A DNA stretch of 47,002 nucleotides from Acidobacteriota bacterium. GTDB lineage: Bacteria > Acidobacteriota > Terriglobia > Terriglobales > Acidobacteriaceae. The stretch is taken from contig JAJZVZ010000017.1 of the NCBI GenBank assembly GCA_021846945.1, forward strand, positions 1 through 47,002. The letters run 5' to 3'. The position numbers were made by a program, and so were the translations under genes. This document shows positions 39,589 through 47,002 of this stretch, in pieces (positions within the stretch are counted from its first letter, which is position 1; every line of letters starts with the position of its first letter). Under the pieces are notes generated by a model. It worked only from the letters and a program-made list of their open reading frames with translations, was not told the origin of the DNA and did not search any database.

Positions 39589-40112
39589 TCCGCCGTCTCC
39601 GCCACAGGAGCGGCGACTGCTTCCTCTGCCTGCGCATCCGGTGCGGAGGACGGATTTCCGTGTGCTCGCCGTTCGCGCTCACGCGTCACCACCTGGCAGG
39701 TGAGCGTGGCTTCGCACGCCAGCTTGCCATCCACGTAGGCGTGACCCTCGATGCGCCCGGCGCGCGTGCGGAACGAAAGCACATCCACCTCGATGCGCAA
39801 TTGATCGCCCGGCGTGACCGGCCGGCGAAACTTGGCGCGCTCGATGCCGGTAAACACGACCAGCTTCTTGTCCCGGTCTGGGATCTCGGCCAGCATGATC
39901 ATGCCGCCGGCCTGAGCCATCGCCTCAACCACAAGCACACCCGGCATGATGGGATAGCCGGGAAAGTGGCCCTGGAAGAACGGCTCGTTGATGGTTACGT
40001 TCTTGATGGCTACCAGTCGCTTCGTGGGCTCGAACTCAATGACCCTGTCGACCAGCAGGAATGGGTAGCGGTGCGGGAGAAAATCCAGGATCGCCTGGAT
40101 ATCAAACGTCAT
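39585..40112 (-). CDS. fabZ: 3-hydroxyacyl-ACP dehydratase FabZ
   Basis: A 175-residue hot-dog fold enzyme that dehydrates 3-hydroxyacyl-ACP, competing with LpxA for the same ACP pool. Catalytic residues are H49 in FQGHFPGYPIMPG and E63 in VVEAMAQAGG; the start DIQAILDFLPHRYPFLLVDRV is typical. A 25-residue acidic/Ala-rich tail (after about 145) is an extra compared with the usual 145-150 residues. GGAG lies eight bases before the ATG. Coupled to lpxA by overlap. Confidence 0.95.
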   Translation of the reverse strand: MTFDIQAILDFLPHRYPFLLVDRVIEFEPTKRLVAIKNVTINEPFFQGHFPGYPIMPGVLVVEAMAQAGGMIMLAEIPDRDKKLVVFTGIERAKFRRPVTPGDQLRIEVDVLSFRTRAGRIEGHAYVDGKLACEATLTCQVVTRERERRAHGNPSSAPDAQAEEAVAAPVAETAE

Positions 40113-40189
40113 GCTCTGGCTCCAAAGAGCGCGTGCGGACGGCGCCGCTCAAGCGCTCCCTTGGATTATAACCAAGCGCGTATCCCGCA

Positions 40190-40990
40190 TTACTTGCCTT
40201 TGATCCGCCGCGCAGTCGCGTCCACATCCCAGAAATCGGCCGGCAGATCCTGGTTGTACTTCGCGCCGGTGATGTAGTACTGCCGCACTGTTTCGCCGTT
40301 CTTCACAAGGCTAAGGGAAAACGGCGTGGGAAATCCGTCGATGGTGTGGTAGTCGTCGTACTCCACAATCTCAGTGTTTTTGTCCTTGTAGACCGGATCG
40401 CGCCATTGAAAGCTGCATTGCAGGGGCAGGTGGGTCTGGGAATCGGTGAGGATGGTGATGGCCTCATTTTGAGCTGAAATCAGAGTCACCTGGTCGGCCA
40501 GATGCCGCTCGGCCAGTTGCTTTCCGTCATACATCAGAATGGTTTTCGGATCTTTCATCCATACCTTCACAGCGGTCTCAATCGAGTGATCACGCCGCCG
40601 CAAAAACTCGTCCACCTGATCCTTCGGCAGCGCCTTTTTGCCGCGGTAGGTTACCTCCCAGCCTTGGCGCCCCACGAAGAACTGCACCACGTCGCGATGC
40701 TTGGTGAATTCGATGCGGTCGCTGTCCGGCCAGGCGTGGTAGTCGAAGTACGTGGTGGTGCCGAGATTGGGATTGCCGTGAAAAAATGCGGCGAACTTCC
40801 CGATCAGCTCCTGGTTCCTGATGTTCAGCCACAAGTCGCCGCCCAGCGCCTGCACCATTTCATCCAACACAGCGCGCGCCTGAGCCGCATTCTTGGCCGC
40901 TGCTTCGTCAACCGCCTGCGCACGGGCCATAATGGGCGCTGCTACCATCAGCACCGCCAGCGCTCCCGGCAAAACTCGCCATATCTTCAT
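40190..40990 (-). CDS. secreted LolA-like protein, second type
   Basis: A 266-residue protein with a signal peptide (1-24, MKIWRVLPGALAVLMVAAPI then MARA). The mature domain opens with a helix AVLDEMVQALGG and has beta segments with YFDYHAWPDSDRIEF, VQFFVGRQGWEVTYRG, THLPLQCSFQWRDPVYK and VEYDDYHTIDGFPTPFSLSL. This pattern resembles the LolA/outer-membrane lipoprotein-sorting fold. Function unknown. AGAGGAAG precedes the ATG. It begins nine bases after the SDR gene stop and is followed by fabZ, so it may belong to the envelope operon. Confidence 0.72.
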   Translation of the reverse strand: MKIWRVLPGALAVLMVAAPIMARAQAVDEAAAKNAAQARAVLDEMVQALGGDLWLNIRNQELIGKFAAFFHGNPNLGTTTYFDYHAWPDSDRIEFTKHRDVVQFFVGRQGWEVTYRGKKALPKDQVDEFLRRRDHSIETAVKVWMKDPKTILMYDGKQLAERHLADQVTLISAQNEAITILTDSQTHLPLQCSFQWRDPVYKDKNTEIVEYDDYHTIDGFPTPFSLSLVKNGETVRQYYITGAKYNQDLPADFWDVDATARRIKGK

Positions 40991-40999
40991 CGCTTCCTC

Positions 41000-41794
41000 T
41001 TATCCCACCAGTACGGACCCACCGTTGACGTTCAGCACTTCGCCGGAGATAAAACCCGCCAGCGGCGTGCACAGAAACAGAATTGGTCCGGCAATTTCCC
41101 GCGGGCTGGCAACACGGCCCAACGGAATTTCAGTTCGAATCTTGGCTCCCAGAGCCGGATCGCCTATCGTAGCCGCCGACATCTCCGTGTCCACCCATCC
41201 GGGCGCCACGCAGTTGACGCGAATCCCCTTGCGCGCCAGCTCGCTCGACAGGCTCTTTGTCAGACTGATCAGCGCGCCTTTGGTCACGGCGTAATCGGCG
41301 TGAAAGGCTTCGCCCCGCTGTCCGGCGGTTGAGCTGATCAGCACAATATGTCCTGCCGCCTGATCCTTCGCGGGTGGCGCCTGCCGCTCCATCTGCGCCA
41401 CGGAGGCCTGCACCAGCCCGAAGACCGAATCCAGGTTGACGTCCAGCGTGCGCCGCCACTGTGCCTCGCCCATTTCCGCGATCGGCATGTCTTCGGGAGG
41501 CCAGATGCCATGGTTCACGACCAGCACGTCCAGCCGCCCGAAGACGGCAATCGCCGCCTCGACCAGCGCGCGGCCCTCCGCCGGCGTGCTCAGTTCCTGT
41601 CGCAGAGCCGCGCACATTCCATACCCGCCGCACTCGGCTGCCAGCACTTCGGCCCGCTCACGGGCCTGGTGGTAGCTGAACGCGACGCGCGCCCCGGCCT
41701 GCGAAAAAAGCCGCACCGTCTCCGCGCCAATCCCGCGCGAACCGCCGGTAATCAGCGCAACCTTGCCCTCCAACGATAAGGAAACACTCGCCAT
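41000..41794 (-). CDS. short-chain dehydrogenase/reductase, FabG-like
   Basis: A 264-residue NAD(P)-dependent oxidoreductase. The Rossmann motif is ITGGSRGIG (15-23), with N120, S154/S155, Y168 and K172 as the catalytic set in LISSTAGQ and ADYAVTKGAL. The usual NNAG is VNHG here. The C-terminal part VNCVAPGWVDTEMS and GEVLNVNGG are like 3-oxoacyl-ACP reductases, so a role in fatty acid synthesis is possible, but many SDRs look alike. The ATG at 41794 is chosen because the Rossmann fold begins right after it. It leads a minus-strand series with fabZ and lpxA. Confidence 0.88.
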   Translation of the reverse strand: MASVSLSLEGKVALITGGSRGIGAETVRLFSQAGARVAFSYHQARERAEVLAAECGGYGMCAALRQELSTPAEGRALVEAAIAVFGRLDVLVVNHGIWPPEDMPIAEMGEAQWRRTLDVNLDSVFGLVQASVAQMERQAPPAKDQAAGHIVLISSTAGQRGEAFHADYAVTKGALISLTKSLSSELARKGIRVNCVAPGWVDTEMSAATIGDPALGAKIRTEIPLGRVASPREIAGPILFLCTPLAGFISGEVLNVNGGSVLVG

Positions 41795-41913
41795 ACGGCC
41801 CACGCTACTGCATTGCCTCGGAGGATGTCGAGAGCGGCAGCATGAGCGGGATTCGGAAGTTTCGATGGCGCGGGTGACATCCAGCGCGGCATGAACTGCG
41901 TCGAATATGCAGA

Positions 41914-41943
41914 CGAGGGGTGGCTCCAGAAGATACCCCCTCG
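41914..41943. other. hairpin upstream of the SDR gene
   Basis: CGAGGGG (41914-41920) pairs with CCCCTCG (41937-41943) around 16 bases, in the 290-base divergent spacer between the SDR gene and the small YqjD-like gene. No promoter of good quality was seen around it. Confidence 0.35.
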
Positions 41944-42084
41944 ATGGTCCGCTGAATCCGAGCCGATCTCGCTGAGTGGCAAGGGGTGGAGAGACCGATC
42001 GGATCACATTGGCATGGGCCACTTGTCAGAGCAAGGGAGTACAAACCGGAGCGACAATCGCTTCAACCGAAGGGGGACAAGCAT

Positions 42085-42354
42085 ATGCCAGCGAACGTGG
42101 TGGAAAAACCGGCAATGGTCGAGGATGCCCTTCGCGAGGTCTCCAGGATCAAGGTGATCGTTACCGAGGCTGTGGAAGACGGTGTCCGATCGGCGATGCA
42201 GACGATGAAACGCGGGCGTTATGCCGCCGAAGACGCAATCGAGGAAGCCAGACACACGGTGAAGCAGAACCCGTTCGAGGCGCTGGGCATAGCCTTTGCC
42301 GCCGGAGTCATGATCGGGGGCCTGTTTGCCTGGGCTGCATGCCGCCGGCGTTAA
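42085..42354 (+). CDS. YqjD/ElaB-like (DUF883-type) membrane-tail protein
   Basis: An 89-residue protein with a charged helical N-terminal part (MVEDALREVSRIKVIVTEAVED through EEARHTVKQNPFEAL) and a C-terminal membrane helix (about 67-84, GIAFAAGVMIGGLFAW) ending in CRRR. The PFEALGIAFAAGVMIGGL motif is like the tail of the ribosome-associated YqjD/ElaB proteins (DUF883). AGGGGG lies eight bases before the ATG. Membrane tethering of ribosomes is the known role in E. coli; here it is only inferred. Confidence 0.7.
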   Translation: MPANVVEKPAMVEDALREVSRIKVIVTEAVEDGVRSAMQTMKRGRYAAEDAIEEARHTVKQNPFEALGIAFAAGVMIGGLFAWAACRRR

Positions 42355-42535
42355 GAGCGAACCCGGGTCATCGGATTGATATCGGGATCCCGTGGTGCCG
42401 ATGCCCGGGGTTGAGTTCCGGAGGAAGAGAAAACGCGCGCGTGCGCGCTCAGGGTAATCCCTATTTATTCTCATTCCTCAATTGCCGCGGTGGAATTTTT
42501 ACGACTCCACGCAAAAAGCGGTGAGAGGCGGCGAC

Positions 42536-42727
42536 TCAGATTGCGCGGATCACTCGCGCCGGCAGCAGGATGACTGCTTTGACCAGTTCCAGCACCCCGC
42601 CGACCGCGACGCCTGCCAGCCGGAAGGGTAGCAGTAGAAGCCAGACCAGCGGATAGAGCAGGAGCGCCAGCAGCGCCAGCGGCCAGCACAATACCAGCAA
42701 GATGCACCACAACAGAAACTTCACCAT
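42536..42727 (-). CDS. very small hydrophobic membrane protein
   Basis: A 63-residue protein, almost wholly hydrophobic (LLWCILLVLCWPLALLALLL and LVWLLLLPFRLAGVAVGG), with a short basic end RVIRAI. One or two membrane passes. No family recognised. GAGG lies before the ATG. It is convergent with the YqjD-like gene. The composition makes it likely real, although small hydrophobic frames can arise by chance. Confidence 0.5.
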   Translation of the reverse strand: MVKFLLWCILLVLCWPLALLALLLYPLVWLLLLPFRLAGVAVGGVLELVKAVILLPARVIRAI

Positions 42728-42849
42728 CGTGAGGCGCCTCGCCGCGCCCGGAGTGGCCCACTCTTCGATACGCCACTGCGCGGGCGGCGGTTCCCTCGCT
42801 CACCGCGGTTTTCTCACACCACGCGCCGCCCCGGCCTTGTTCGGCTGAG

Positions 42850-43260
42850 TCAGTTGTTTTTTCGCTCGCGGATCAACCGGGACCGTTCCCTCTTGGGCAG
42901 GGCCAGCTCCGCTTTGGTATGCCGGGCAAGCCTTTCGTAGATCAGCGCGTGCGCCCGCTTCAGCTCCTCTTCGATCTCGAGTGGCCGCAGCGCGTCCCAC
43001 CGCTCCAGGGCTACCCAGAATGCTCGGGCCAGATGCGGTGCCGGGATGATTCCCTCATTTTCCAGAAGTTCATGGAAGCGCTCTGCCCCGCAGTGAAACC
43101 AGAGCACGCCGGCTCCCACTCCCTCCAGGTCAGTCATCGCGAACATCTTGCCGCCGAGGTCTCGATCGCCGACCCAGTACACCAGGTGATGACCCCAGTT
43201 CAGGGTTTCGGTCACGTGCGGCAATCCCAGGCAAAACTCGCGGATCCGCTCGTTGTCCAT
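42850..43260 (-). CDS. MmcQ/YjbR family protein
   Basis: A 136-residue protein of the YjbR (DUF419) family, a CyaY-like fold that binds DNA or small ligands; function not settled. It begins [20 protein letters not shown] and has [21 protein letters not shown], then [16 protein letters not shown] and [19 protein letters not shown]. The basic tail [15 protein letters not shown] is an extension. The start at 43260 is the first Met that gives the family N-terminus; the frame runs far upstream, antisense to rplA, without meaning. Confidence 0.85.
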
Positions 43261-43380
43261 GCGAAGAGTGTATGCCGGAACGCGCGCCTTCGCGAGAGGC
43301 TCCAAAGCCGGCCGCGGAGGCCGAAGATCGATTCCCCTATTCGAGCAAAGGATGGACCCTGCGAATGCGGTTCGCTGTTC

Positions 43381-43409
43381 TTGCTTTTCCCCCGTGGTTT
43401 GGCTATGAT
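43381..43409 (+). promoter_or_regulatory. promoter of the rplA operon
   Basis: TTGCTT (43381-43386), 17 bases, then TATGAT (43404-43409; five of six matches). Transcription would begin near 43416. Confidence 0.55.
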
Positions 43410-43420
43410 CCATAGATGCG

Positions 43421-43438
43421 TCCAGGGAGATCCCTGGA
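43421..43438. promoter_or_regulatory. palindrome at the start of the rplA leader
   Basis: TCCAGGGA-GA-TCCCTGGA: perfect eight-base arms around two bases, lying at about +6 to +23 of the predicted rplA mRNA. It could be a repressor site or a 5' stem. Feedback by L1 is known for rplKA leaders in general, but I cannot show an L1-like motif here. Confidence 0.45.
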
Positions 43439-43572
43439 TTGTCACGAGTACCACGGCTTTTGGGCCCGTTCGAGTGCGCCGCGCAGGATGTGAAAGATAT
43501 GAATTGCGCGACAGGCGCCTCCGGGTTCCCCGCAACATGGGGCTGGCAAGAGCGGTGGGAGACGAGGATTGA

Positions 43573-44283
43573 ATGCCAAGGAAAATCAGCAAGAATATTG
43601 CGAAGGCGCGCGCCGCTGTCACCAAGCCGGCGTATGCATTGCCCGAGGCCGTCGACCTGCTCAAGCAGGTGAAATACGCCAAGTTCGACGAGACTGTGGA
43701 CCTGACCATGCGGCTGGGTGTGGACACGCGCCATGCCGACCAGATGGTGCGCGGGACCGTGGTTCTGCCTCATGGGCTGGGCAAGACCAAGACAGTGGCC
43801 GTGATTGCCACGGGCGATCGCCAGAAGGAAGCAGCCGAAGCCGGCGCGGACTTTGTGGGCGGCGAGGAAATGGTCGAGAAGATCCAGAAGGAAAATTGGA
43901 CCGACTTCGACGCGCTCATCGCCACGCCCGACATGATGAAGGTTGTGGGTCGCCTGGGCAAGGTGCTCGGCCCCAAGGGTCTGATGCCGAATCCCAAGAC
44001 CGGCACCGTGACCACGGATGTGGCTGCGTCGGTAAAGGAAATCAAGGCCGGCAAGGTGGAATACCGCGCCGACAAGACCAGTCTGGTGCATGTGCCTGTA
44101 GGCAAGTTGAGCTTTGCGCCGGAGAAGCTGATCGAGAATGCATCGACGGTGATTGGCGCGGTGGTGCGGAGCAAGCCGGCGGCGGCTAAGGGCAAGTACA
44201 TCAAGAGCGTCACGTTGAGCTCCACGATGGGCCCGGGCGTTCCGCTGGATGCGGCGATCGTCGAGGCGTCGGGCAAGCACTAA
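43573..44283 (+). CDS. rplA: 50S ribosomal protein L1
   Basis: A 236-residue ribosomal protein of the L1 stalk. It has the start [20 protein letters not shown] and the family signature around [28 protein letters not shown], then [21 protein letters not shown]. Length is normal (about 230). GAGG lies five bases before the ATG. It is the first gene of the plus-strand ribosomal series; the usual upstream partner rplK is absent, and a minus-strand yjbR-like gene lies there instead. Confidence 0.98.
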
Positions 44284-44304
44284 GACAGGGTTCAGGTTTC
44301 ATGG

Positions 44305-44348
44305 GGCAGGGATCAGTTGGTTCCATGGCCCTGCCGGCGTTGTGCCGG
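44305..44348 (+). promoter_or_regulatory. hairpins in the rplA-rplJ spacer
   Basis: GGCAGGG (44305-44311) pairs with CCCTGCC (44329-44335), followed by CCGGC/GCCGG (44334-44348) sharing two bases with it. The position is where L10 leaders regulate rplJ in other bacteria, but I cannot identify the L10 kink-turn motif. Confidence 0.35.
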
Positions 44349-44482
44349 AGCCAGGCGATTTGGGATTGAGATGTGCGCCGGGACGGCGCGGGAAGAGCGA
44401 AGGCGGAGAAGGAGAGGCTTCAGTTTGGGGATTCTGGTCCCTGGACCCGGAACCCTGATCTCTGCCGGGGCGGAGCAAAGAT

Positions 44483-45016
44483 ATGGCAATTTCAAAGGCA
44501 AAGAAGGTAGAGAAGGTTCAGCTGCTGGCCAAGGAGCTGGAAACCTCCACGACGGCGATCATCGGCACCTTTTCAAAGTTGACCGTGGCCAAGGATTATG
44601 AGCTGCGCAAGGTGATTCGCGAAGCTGGCGGCAAGTACCGTGTGGTCAAGAATAAATTGGCCGCGGTCTCCAGCCAGGGCACCCGGGTCGAGGCTGCGTT
44701 GAAAGGGCTGAAGGGCGTCAACTCGGTCGCGTTTACCTCGGGCGATCCGGTGGCGCTGGCGAAGGTCTTCGCCAAGTGGGCCGGCGAAAACGCGGAGTTT
44801 GAGTTCAAGCTCGGCATTGTGGATGGCAAGCTGCTGAGCGTTGACGATGTCAAGGCTCTGGCGACGATGCCGGGCAAGGAGGAGATCTTCTCCAAGTTGC
44901 TGTTCCTCATCAATGCTCCGGCGCAGCGGCTGGCGACGGTTATCAATGCCACGGGCCGCGATCTGGCCGTGGTGCTGGGCCAGGGCGTGGAGAAAGAGAA
45001 GTTTGCCGCGGCGTAG
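44483..45016 (+). CDS. rplJ: 50S ribosomal protein L10
   Basis: A 177-residue protein that anchors the L7/L12 stalk to 23S rRNA. The start MAISKAKKVEKVQLLAKELE and the block YELRKVIREAGGKYRVVKNKL are typical L10, as is the C-terminal helix that binds L7/L12 dimers (LFLINAPAQRLATVINATGRDL). GGAG is seven bases before the ATG. It follows rplA after 199 bases. Confidence 0.98.
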   Translation: MAISKAKKVEKVQLLAKELETSTTAIIGTFSKLTVAKDYELRKVIREAGGKYRVVKNKLAAVSSQGTRVEAALKGLKGVNSVAFTSGDPVALAKVFAKWAGENAEFEFKLGIVDGKLLSVDDVKALATMPGKEEIFSKLLFLINAPAQRLATVINATGRDLAVVLGQGVEKEKFAAA

Positions 45017-45033
45017 CCGCGAGGTTGTCAGTG

Positions 45034-45097
45034 AGCAGTGGCTGGTTGAGGCGGAGAGTCGATCGTGGTGGTTGATAACTGAACACTGACCACTGCT
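45034..45097. repeat. CAGTG-rich inverted repeat between rplJ and rplL
   Basis: AGCAGTGG (45034-45041) pairs with CCACTGCT (45090-45097). The minus strand around the right arm reads AGCAGTGGTCAGTGTTCAG and then TTATCA, a chain of CAGTG-like units of a kind often seen between genes in bacterial genomes. No gene is present in the 202-base spacer. Confidence 0.45.
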
Positions 45098-45218
45098 TTT
45101 CAGGGATTTTGGCTGGGAAACGGGCGGAAAGGGCGCGAGTCTGGGCGCATCGGAAACTTTCAGGTTCTGCGGAACGGCCGGGAAATATCAATTCAAAAGG
45201 TTCTGATTGGAGAGGAAA

Positions 45219-45599
45219 ATGGCGGATCTCGCACAGTTGGAAGAGCAAATTGTATCGTTGAGCCTGCTGGAAGCGGCGGCTCTGGTGAAGAAGCTGGAAG
45301 AGCGGCTGGGTGTTTCGGCGGCCGCTGCGGCCCCGGTGGTCGTGGCAGGCGCCGCAGGCGGCGGCGCGGCGGCTCCTGCAGTTGAGGAGAAGACCGAGTT
45401 CCAGGTGATCCTGAAGGACGCCGGCGCGAACAAGATCAACACAATCAAGGCTGTACGCGAGGTTACCTCGCTGGGCCTGAAGGAAGCCAAGGACCTGGTC
45501 GATGGCGCTCCCAAGCCGATCAAGGAGAACGCCACGAAGGAAGAGGCTGAGGCGATCAAGAAGAAGTTCGAGGGCGTCGCGACGATCGAGGTCAAGTAA
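45219..45599 (+). CDS. rplL: 50S ribosomal protein L7/L12
   Basis: A 126-residue stalk protein that recruits translation factors. The N-terminal dimerisation part [22 protein letters not shown] leads into the Ala/Gly/Pro hinge (about 36-58) and the C-terminal domain [21 protein letters not shown] and [19 protein letters not shown]. The start at 45219 is chosen (GGAGAGG in front); a TTG four codons earlier is less likely. Confidence 0.98.
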
Positions 45600-46379
45600 G
45601 CCGCGAAGCTTGCATTGGCGACCGGGACGCGCTACGATAATGATTGCGCGTCTTTCCGGTCGGTCTCCGTATTTTCCTACGGAGAAGAGCGGATAGGTCG
45701 TTGCCTTAAGATTTGAAGATCGTGGAGTGGCACGCAGGCGTCCGAGGCCGGGGCAAAGCCAAGCCCCTTGGCTGCAGGTTCCGCAAAGAGGTTAAGTGCC
45801 ATAGGGTCAGTGGATTATCTGGCGGTCAGGCGAGAAGTCCATTGACGAGAGTCGAGTGGCTGGCGAGCAGTAGAAGCGAGCTTTGGGATCGGCGAGAGTA
45901 GGGCAGGAGAATTCGGTTTGGGGCACTGGCGATGGGCCGCGCTCGTGAGGAATTGCGTCCTTACGGGCCTTTTGTGTCTCCCGGCGAGGGCGGTTTGAAG
46001 ATTTTGTCCTTATATTCTTGCCTTCCATGCGGCGAGGTCTTGCTTTAGTTCACTCGTTTTGGCGGGTGCGGCTCATGCGCCCGCTTCTCTCCGTTGAGCG
46101 CAGTCTGGCGTACTCATCGGAGAAGGGGCAATGCCGGGGGTGCGCTTTGGGCGCGGCTCTCATGCGTATCATGCCTGACCTGGGTAATTTTCGGCATGCC
46201 TGGGGTTGAGCCCCGGGTCTGGCCGGAAAAGCGAACAGTGGCGGCTGGCCGTAGAGGTCTGCCAGTCCGGATTTATCGATCTTCTTTACCGTAATCAGCC
46301 GGCGCAGCGAGACTCGGGCGCCGGCCCGGCGAAACCACGACGGGTGGCTGAGCCGGATTGACGAGCCTCAGGAGTGAAC
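45600..46379. other. 780-base spacer between rplL and rpoB
   Basis: Unusually long for this pair. Just after the rplL stop is a weak promoter-like pair TTGCAT (45610) and TACGAT (45633), 17 bases apart, then a hairpin at 45664-45685. Further on, GGGGC/GCCCC and GCCAAG/CTTGGC near 45749-45773 could pair. TATATT at 46011 is a possible -10 without a good -35. Short open frames here have no protein-like sequence. No ncRNA family could be recognised. Confidence 0.55.
45664..45685 (+). other. hairpin downstream of rplL
   Basis: TCTCCGTA and TACGGAGA are perfect eight-base arms with a TTTTCC loop. There is no T-run after the stem, so it may be an mRNA-processing or partial attenuation site separating ribosomal protein from polymerase gene expression, as is known for the rplL-rpoB gap in E. 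coli. Confidence 0.5.
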
Positions 46380-47002
46380 ATGCCCAACGAGAAGCGCGCG
46401 ATTCGCAGCCGGCTCGATTTTTCGAAGATTCCCACCGCAACGCAAATCCCCAACCTGATCGAAGTGCAGCGCCGCTCCTATGAGCGCTTCCTGCAGATGG
46501 ATAAGCTGCCCAATGAGCGGGATGACTCTGGATTGCAGTCCGTGTTTGTTTCGGTTTTTCCCATCACCGATTTTCGCGGCATCTCGCAGTTGGATTTCGT
46601 TGACTACTCGATTGGCAATTGGGAGTGCAAGTGCGGCCACCTGAAGGGCCTGCACCACCTGAGAACGGCCTGCGTGCACTGCGGCGCGATGGTGATCACC
46701 GATCCCTTCCTGCCGGGTGACGTGCTGTGCCAGAAGTGCGGCACCTATAACAAGAACACGCCGGATTTCTGCAATAAGTGCGGCGACCCGGTCAGTCTGC
46801 AGTTGAAGTACGACCAGCAGGAGTGCGAAGAGCGGGGCATGACCTTCTCCGCGCCCCTGAAGGTCACAGTGCGCCTGACCATCTACGACCAGGATGCCGA
46901 AACCGGCAACAAGACCATCCGCGACATTAAGGAGCAGGAAGTCTTCTTCGGAGACATTCCGCTGATGACGCCGAATGGCACCTTCATCGTGAACGGAACG
47001 GA
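46380..47002 (+). CDS. rpoB: DNA-directed RNA polymerase subunit beta (N-terminal part)
   Basis: The first 207 codons of rpoB, cut by the window edge. The start [20 protein letters not shown] and the block [16 protein letters not shown] are standard, as is the end [19 protein letters not shown]. Between LDFVDYSIG and [13 protein letters not shown], where E. coli RpoB goes directly from YRLGEPVFD to VQEC, there is an insert of about 57 residues with eight cysteines: C83, C85, C98, C101, C117, C120, C131, C134. They look like two zinc-ribbon knuckles. AGGAG is five bases before the ATG. Confidence 0.97.

Follow-up and report, generated by a model that had tools for sequence, protein, structure and literature searches.

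A cysteine-rich, probably metal-binding insert in the beta1 domain of RNA polymerase beta subunits of Acidobacteriota

The question raised by the locus

The window, meaning the whole 47,002-nucleotide stretch of Acidobacteriota DNA that was analysed, ends inside rpoB, the gene for the beta subunit of RNA polymerase. By frame reading, the ATG at 46380 is the rpoB start and the gene overruns the window end; its remainder lies on contig G000:C260, with an overlap of 50 identical residues. A Pfam profile search places PF04563 at residues 147-200 (E 2.1e-10). Ahead of that domain lie 62 residues with eight cysteines, and the question is what such a segment does in RNA polymerase, and in which bacteria. 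The gap between rplL and rpoB is long (780 nt; window 45600-46379), and a search of 40000-47002 with Rfam returned no family at gathering score.

Position and parts of the insert

An earlier note on this DNA had described residues at 46620-46800 as an insertion without counterpart in E. coli RpoB. That description is borne out, as solved RpoB chains match the flanks alone: none of 46 distinct PDB RpoB sequences has a best stretch covering residues 81-135, and the two alignments shown break at residue 77 or 80 and restart at 142 or 144. The bounds are slightly wider than had been given, at 46617-46802 (residues 80-141, 62 amino acids). The cysteines, counted from the ATG at 46380, stand exactly where the note had put them, at 83, 85, 98, 101, 117, 120, 131 and 134. 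The recognized parts are as follows.

46380-47002, plus strand: 5' part of rpoB, residues 1-207 (PF04563, PDB matches, continuation on G000:C260)
46617-46802, plus strand: the insert, N80-Q141, 62 amino acids (split in RpoB alignments, insert lengths)
46614-46625, plus strand: base strand 1, residues 79-82 (GNWE), a predicted strand (model residues 3-6; W81 in 116/118)
46626-46634, plus strand: cysteine pair 1 (C83, C85), proposed outer metal site (conservation, co-loss with C131)
46635-46664, plus strand: loop and short helix, residues 86-95 (GxLxG[LI]xxLR), candidate contact surface (conservation, pairwise identity)
46671-46682, plus strand: cysteine pair 2 (C98, C101), proposed inner metal site, first knuckle (conservation, model, co-loss with C120 in L065)
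46728-46739, plus strand: cysteine pair 3 (C117, C120), proposed inner metal site, second knuckle (conservation, model)
46770-46781, plus strand: cysteine pair 4 (C131, C134), proposed outer metal site (conservation, co-loss)
46794-46805, plus strand: base strand 2, residues 139-142 (SLQL), a predicted strand (model residues 63-66; L140 in 113/118)
46926-46934, plus strand: IKE motif of beta1, residues 183-185, which we take to be the docking motif for the RID domains of Mfd and CarD (intact in the sequence, adjoins the insert; K184 and E185 invariant in 37 rows)

The insertion point corresponds approximately to E. coli RpoB residue 80, inside the beta1 domain (protrusion). The RpoB of a relative, modelled over residues 1-600 (mean pLDDT 77.6, pTM 0.56, insert blocks at 84-89), matches E. 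coli RpoB with a best Z of 28.4 over the lobe, so the domain is as expected, yet the model is imprecise, with rmsd values of roughly 7-10 A in rows that span residues 25-548. The available text of PMC4593161 treats beta1 as the counterpart of the Rpb2 protrusion and puts it close to the upstream part of the bubble; the corresponding text of PMC7864632 places the docking site of Mfd on the protrusion as well. Because beta1 lies close to upstream DNA, the insert's supposed orientation toward downstream DNA was wrong.

Conservation

All eight cysteines are invariant in 40 aligned inserts, a set whose rows were chosen for intact cysteines. When degenerate inserts are included, each cysteine is present in 112 to 118 of the 118 distinct 62-residue inserts, so conservation among relatives, a point on which the original proposal depended, is confirmed. 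Length is almost fixed. Counted by locus, some loci being duplicates of one genome, 133 rows have 62 residues, three have 64 and one has 63, and a further 20 rows have 1-27. Cysteine conservation and near-constant length together indicate that the insert is not a product of chance.

Other positions are also well kept among the 118 distinct inserts: G90 in 117, W81 in 116, and V138 and L140 in 113 each. Outside the cysteines, residues 80-95 have a mean pairwise identity of 0.585 in 111 rows, close to that of the flanks (0.587 and 0.605), and residues 102-116 drift, with a mean of 0.218 in the same number of rows. L88, G90, [LI]91 and R95 are present in all seven of the degenerate inserts shown. 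The insert carries little net charge (mean +0.7, range -6 to +8) and so gives no hint of strong binding to nucleic acid.

Distribution in Acidobacteriota

A profile of the insert matches 352 of 396 Acidobacteriota genomes at E <= 8.6e-11. The count is 373 at E <= 0.001, from which 21 genomes with best E-values of 1.4e-4 to 9e-4 were subtracted, most of their matches being presumably to RpoC. Among the 44 genomes without an insert call, 12 have an RpoB N-terminus in which 1, 3 or 7 residues, or a remnant of 26-27 residues, replace the insert; in G373 a contig end interrupts the insert, 22 (G035 included) give no match to the RpoB N-terminus, and the remaining nine are unclassified. When the N-terminal 207 residues of RpoB were used as the query, 192 of 199 genomes matched, including G035, whose weak match (E 7.3e-4) is probably not RpoB. 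A match in G176:C55 (E 0.0012) falls in a protein that reads from its sequence as alpha/beta-hydrolase-like, and was rejected as a chance match. Seven genomes that are at least 97% complete lack a match to the RpoB N-terminus (G175, G261, G262, G283, G388, G403 and G019); assembly breaks within rpoB probably explain this, since the G175 contig stops about 1.8 kb short of rpoC.

An RpoB tree was made with the insert removed. After duplicates and sequences of fewer than 300 residues were dropped, 129 rows were left, comprising 112 with an intact insert, seven degenerate, two reduced and eight without it; the root was not inferred. The fewest changes on this tree are three for absence, two for reduction and five for degeneration, four of the last being forced by starred branches. 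The change counts alone fit gain or loss, and the absences and reductions are read here as losses. Intact rows lie on both sides of deep forks, so that the insert looks ancestral to the sampled Acidobacteriota. Because it is absent or shrunken in five lineages, it is dispensable in some backgrounds. A class-wide search of 41 genomes around G003 gave no lineage beyond those already found. The earlier expectation that other Acidobacteriota share the insert therefore holds as to wide occurrence and fails as to universality: three lineages lack it and two have 26-27 residues in its place.

Occurrence outside the phylum

The possibility that most bacterial RpoB proteins carry the same insert was checked with rpoB records from a plasmid collection. 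Among 60 rows of 75 records, 13 were off the site or not ordinary RpoB; in all 47 named rows that span the site (H41-H87), both flanks lie within 348-420 nt, which is too short for the insert to be present. These rows cover 29 genera and five phyla (Pseudomonadota, Bacillota, Bacteroidota, Actinomycetota and Fusobacteriota), with ten rows from Clostridioides, and the phyla nearest to Acidobacteriota fall outside this sample. In a scan of named contigs for the NWECKCG motif, 79 of the best 80 of 578 loci are labelled Acidobacteriota or taxa below it. The eightieth, L188, is labelled Verrucomicrobia; its RpoB shares 86.5% identity over 1389 residues with that of L191, labelled Acidobacteria, and L188 is thus probably mislabelled.

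The window's insert, used alone as a query, gave no plasmid match at E <= 0.01. One relative was found on a plasmid of Streptomyces sp. NBC_01483 (NZ_CP109439.1, L250:1120-2475; match at 1359580-1360038), in a 451-residue protein that does not have the length of RpoB. Its beta1-like stretch is 36% identical over 74 residues to the window's RpoB and is followed, at the same place, by an eight-cysteine insert of similar spacing. The preceding gene encodes a NACHT/AAA-type NTPase. A 210-residue piece of the protein matches solved RpoB weakly (best E 0.013) and has no relative in a second plasmid record, leaving a single case; viral contigs gave no relative of this piece or of the window's insert query. 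A broader reading, which we regard as doubtful, would make the insert a regulatory contact module of the whole phylum, its nested two-metal fold being one not described for RNA polymerase, and the combination of beta1 and metal unit would occur also as a stand-alone protein.

Pairing of the metal sites

The insert probably binds two metal ions, with zinc the likeliest, a view based on the conservation and co-loss of the cysteines. It had been described as two zinc ribbons in a row, in which pair 1 would join pair 2 and pair 3 would join pair 4. The cysteine-rich character stands; the sequential arrangement is not favoured. The seven degenerate inserts in the tree (eight with G098, L237) represent five lineages (f34, f26-g51, f5-g207, f5-g163 and f5-g12). 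C83 and C131 were lost together in four of these, and C85 was also lost in two of the four; one of the four, L091, fits after a one-residue shift of pair 3. In the fifth, L065, C98, C101 and C120 were lost. By these losses the cysteines of the CxC-12-CxxC frame would be split between two sites, with 83/85 accompanying 131 in four lineages and 98/101 accompanying 120 in the fifth.

A nested arrangement (pairs 1 and 4, pairs 2 and 3) fits ligand co-loss in five of five lineages, and the sequential and crossed arrangements fit none of the five. Under a null in which losses are independent and equally likely at each cysteine, the nested result has p = 0.0016 after correction for three patterns, or 0.0037 when two f5 events are merged; the corresponding values under a cruder, pair-level null are 0.012 and 0.037. 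The pairs are therefore probably nested, 83/85 with 131/134 and 98/101 with 117/120, and this co-loss is the reason that sequential ribbons, the first reading, were set aside. Profile evidence for sequential sites nonetheless remains, as ribbon scores over pairs 3 and 4, together with a likeness of pairs 1 and 2 to the beta-prime subunit, would suit them. Zn_Ribbon_1, DUF7577 and DZR all match over pairs 3 and 4. The DZR score is 27.4 for a 65-residue piece, against a curated cut-off of 27.3, and 19.6 for the 207-residue protein; of four other inserts, two pass (28.6 and 27.9) and two fall below the cut-off (22.9 and 21.2). Over pairs 2 and 3, archaeal RNA polymerase subunit P matches at profile positions 16-44 (E 5.4e-4), as does Zn_Ribbon_TF.

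An AlphaFold model of residues 77-144 agrees with nested pairing. Its mean pLDDT is 89.9, with two of the five models of this small piece having means below 70, and predicted strands flank pairs 2 and 3 and occur also at both ends. Predicted residues 92-125 superpose on 2lk0, a RanBP2-type zinc finger (28 residues, 1.3 A, Z 2.1), and residues 94-130 on LysW (37 residues, 2.5 A, Z 2.0). Both ranges contain pairs 2 and 3 and neither pair 1 nor pair 4; other RanBP2-type rows start earlier, and every Z in the VIA-align rows is below 3. A Foldseek search of the PDB with the small model gave no row at E <= 0.001.

Likeness to the beta-prime zinc domain

The first part of the insert resembles the N-terminal zinc-binding domain of the beta-prime subunit, whose four cysteines bind one zinc. 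Searched with a profile of residues 80-109 built from 39 inserts, at least 53 of 60 genomes gave a near-full-length match read, from frame length and position, as RpoC. Forty-seven of those matches are at E <= 0.0044, and the best match to neither RpoB nor RpoC, among the matches listed, is at 0.0048; 18 frames in the loci carry the RpoC motif NADFDGD. In hhalign comparisons, module 1 and the beta-prime domain align with a probability of 96.7% over 27 ungapped columns, compared with 65.0% for module 1 against module 2 and 74.2% for module 2 against the beta-prime domain. Among 60 rows of a 76-row PDB list, those that span at least profile positions 1-24 are RNA polymerase chains of the beta-prime or gamma type, some of which (a few) depositors labelled beta.

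These likenesses raise the possibility that the first part of the insert is a duplicate of the beta-prime zinc domain that moved into beta and whose metal site was later rewired. Column permutations speak to this on both sides. With the cysteines fixed, or the cysteines and the knuckle glycines, none of 150 permutations reaches the observed score, but 8 of 150 do so once W81 is fixed as well (mean probability 90.7%), so that beyond the cysteine frame the likeness rests on few residues. Moreover, the beta-prime rows in the PDB list are weak (best E 0.061), with other zinc proteins ranking above them on partial matches, and ligand co-loss does not pair modules 1 and 2. Foldseek gave only a poor row (E 2.6, rmsd 9.7) for 3dxj_D, a beta-prime chain, and the beta-prime zinc domain is not among the VIA-align rows for the predicted insert. 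We consider such a duplication unlikely; as an account of origin, it would be compatible with a contact role for the insert.

Possible functions

The reading we prefer, one that we would accept about as readily as doubt, is that the insert is an ancestral, rigid knob in beta1 with nested metal sites, on which a conserved loop serves as a contact surface at the upstream edge of the polymerase. An ancestral Acidobacteriota module would have been inserted into the beta1 domain of RNA polymerase beta. The inner pair of knuckles (C98, C101, C117, C120) would form its tip, and the outer site (C83, C85, C131, C134) would staple both ends together at the base, which has predicted strands at residues 79-82 and 139-142. 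Stiffened by the metals, the knob would then present the GxLxG[LI]xxLR loop (residues 86-95) where the polymerase meets upstream DNA and factors. If exposed as proposed, the loop may contact a protein, or DNA, at that edge, and a protein partner may be lineage-specific, as the earlier note had suggested. A contact surface is favoured since inserts that have lost metal ligands still retain part of the loop, although the loop could be structural instead.

Close behind is the view that the insert is a metal-stabilized loop that arose once and is tolerated without a partner, its conservation reflecting folding only. The three absences and two reductions on the tree would be natural in that case, as would the free drift of residues 102-116 and the five lineages that lost metal ligands but kept the insert. 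The nearly fixed length of 62 residues fits less well, as do the persistence of parts of the loop without ligands and the conservation of residues 80-95 at the level of the RpoB flanks. On balance we hold this passive role possible, if somewhat doubtful. The same five lineages, which keep the insert after losing the ligands of one site, also count against a sensor of zinc or redox state acting on polymerase activity. Eight cysteines in probable metal sites might be expected of such a sensor, but no other sensing feature was seen, and we give this idea scarcely any credence.

A more specific proposal is that the insert is a dedicated dock for CarD or Mfd, both of which bind beta1. It shares its domain with the sites for CarD and the Mfd RID (available text of PMC4593161 and PMC7864632), and the IKE motif is intact; however, E. 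coli Mfd binds beta1 (available text of PMC7864632), and E. coli RpoB has no such insert. In a PF02559 search of 38 genomes, 21 carry an intact insert and 8 of these lack a match of CarD size. The genome of the window (G000) is among the eight, its single CarD_TRCF_RID match being in a 1194-residue frame of Mfd size. Matches of both sizes occur in all ten of the insert-less or reduced genomes sampled and in all seven degenerate ones; in G317 the one of Mfd size is partial (18 positions). The eight genomes without a CarD-size match imply that the insert is not solely a CarD dock, and that narrower version is unsupported; a dedicated dock for either protein seems to us highly unlikely. In a RID run on 396 genomes, inspected by eye, two matches occur in 11 of the 12 genomes whose insert is absent or reduced, and one in G080; many insert-bearing genomes have two and many have one, and no association is claimed.

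RNA polymerase is a well-studied enzyme, yet in most of the examined members of a common soil phylum its upstream-facing domain seems to bear an extra part, probably metal-bound, on which our literature search found no study. If the contact surface that we prefer is real, it would constitute a regulatory site that neither E. coli nor Thermus has, and lineages that lost the insert naturally provide ready comparisons for testing its role.

Comparison with known systems

The insert shares with the beta-prime zinc domain its CxC-12-CxxC frame and a WECxCG start, and in most of the 60 genomes searched no match other than RpoB itself ranks above that domain. In contrast, the domain belongs to the other subunit, and in the insert co-loss splits pairs 1 and 2 between two sites. 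We equate it with beta'-bD1 as named in the available text of PMC11515920. The double zinc ribbon is a second relative in appearance: pairs 3 and 4 score at or near the curated cut-offs of DZR (PF12773) and Zn_Ribbon_1 (PF13240), but the score depends on the piece submitted, and the insert's pairing looks nested. RanBP2-type fingers and the LysW knuckle pair resemble predicted residues 92-125 and 94-130 respectively, with Z values of only 2.0-2.1, and the insert differs from them by its second, outer set of cysteines.

A literature search found no description of the insert, the 2010 catalogue of Lane and colleagues being beyond its scope; the insert may equal beta-i1, beta-i2 or beta-i3 of that catalogue. 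In the available text of PMC2939025, beta-i4 and beta-i9 are given for Acidobacteria and beta-i11 for Acidobacteriaceae. In that of PMC11515920, a 2024 survey, beta-uD1 comprises E. coli residues 1-152, 450-577 and 675-714 and no lineage-specific domain is named there; the word "zinc" is absent from its main text, and inserts of fewer than 50 residues without known relatives are excluded. Lineage-specific beta inserts (beta-i4, beta-i9, beta-i11 and others, and the BEAN domains) are likewise extra domains in a bacterial group, and the present insert, judged by the profile search of 396 genomes and the tree, occupies one site in one lineage. It differs from them in its cysteine richness, in its probable metal binding and in its site, at about E. 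coli residue 80 in the 1-152 part of beta-uD1, unlike the BEAN domains of beta-uD2 and beta-uD3.
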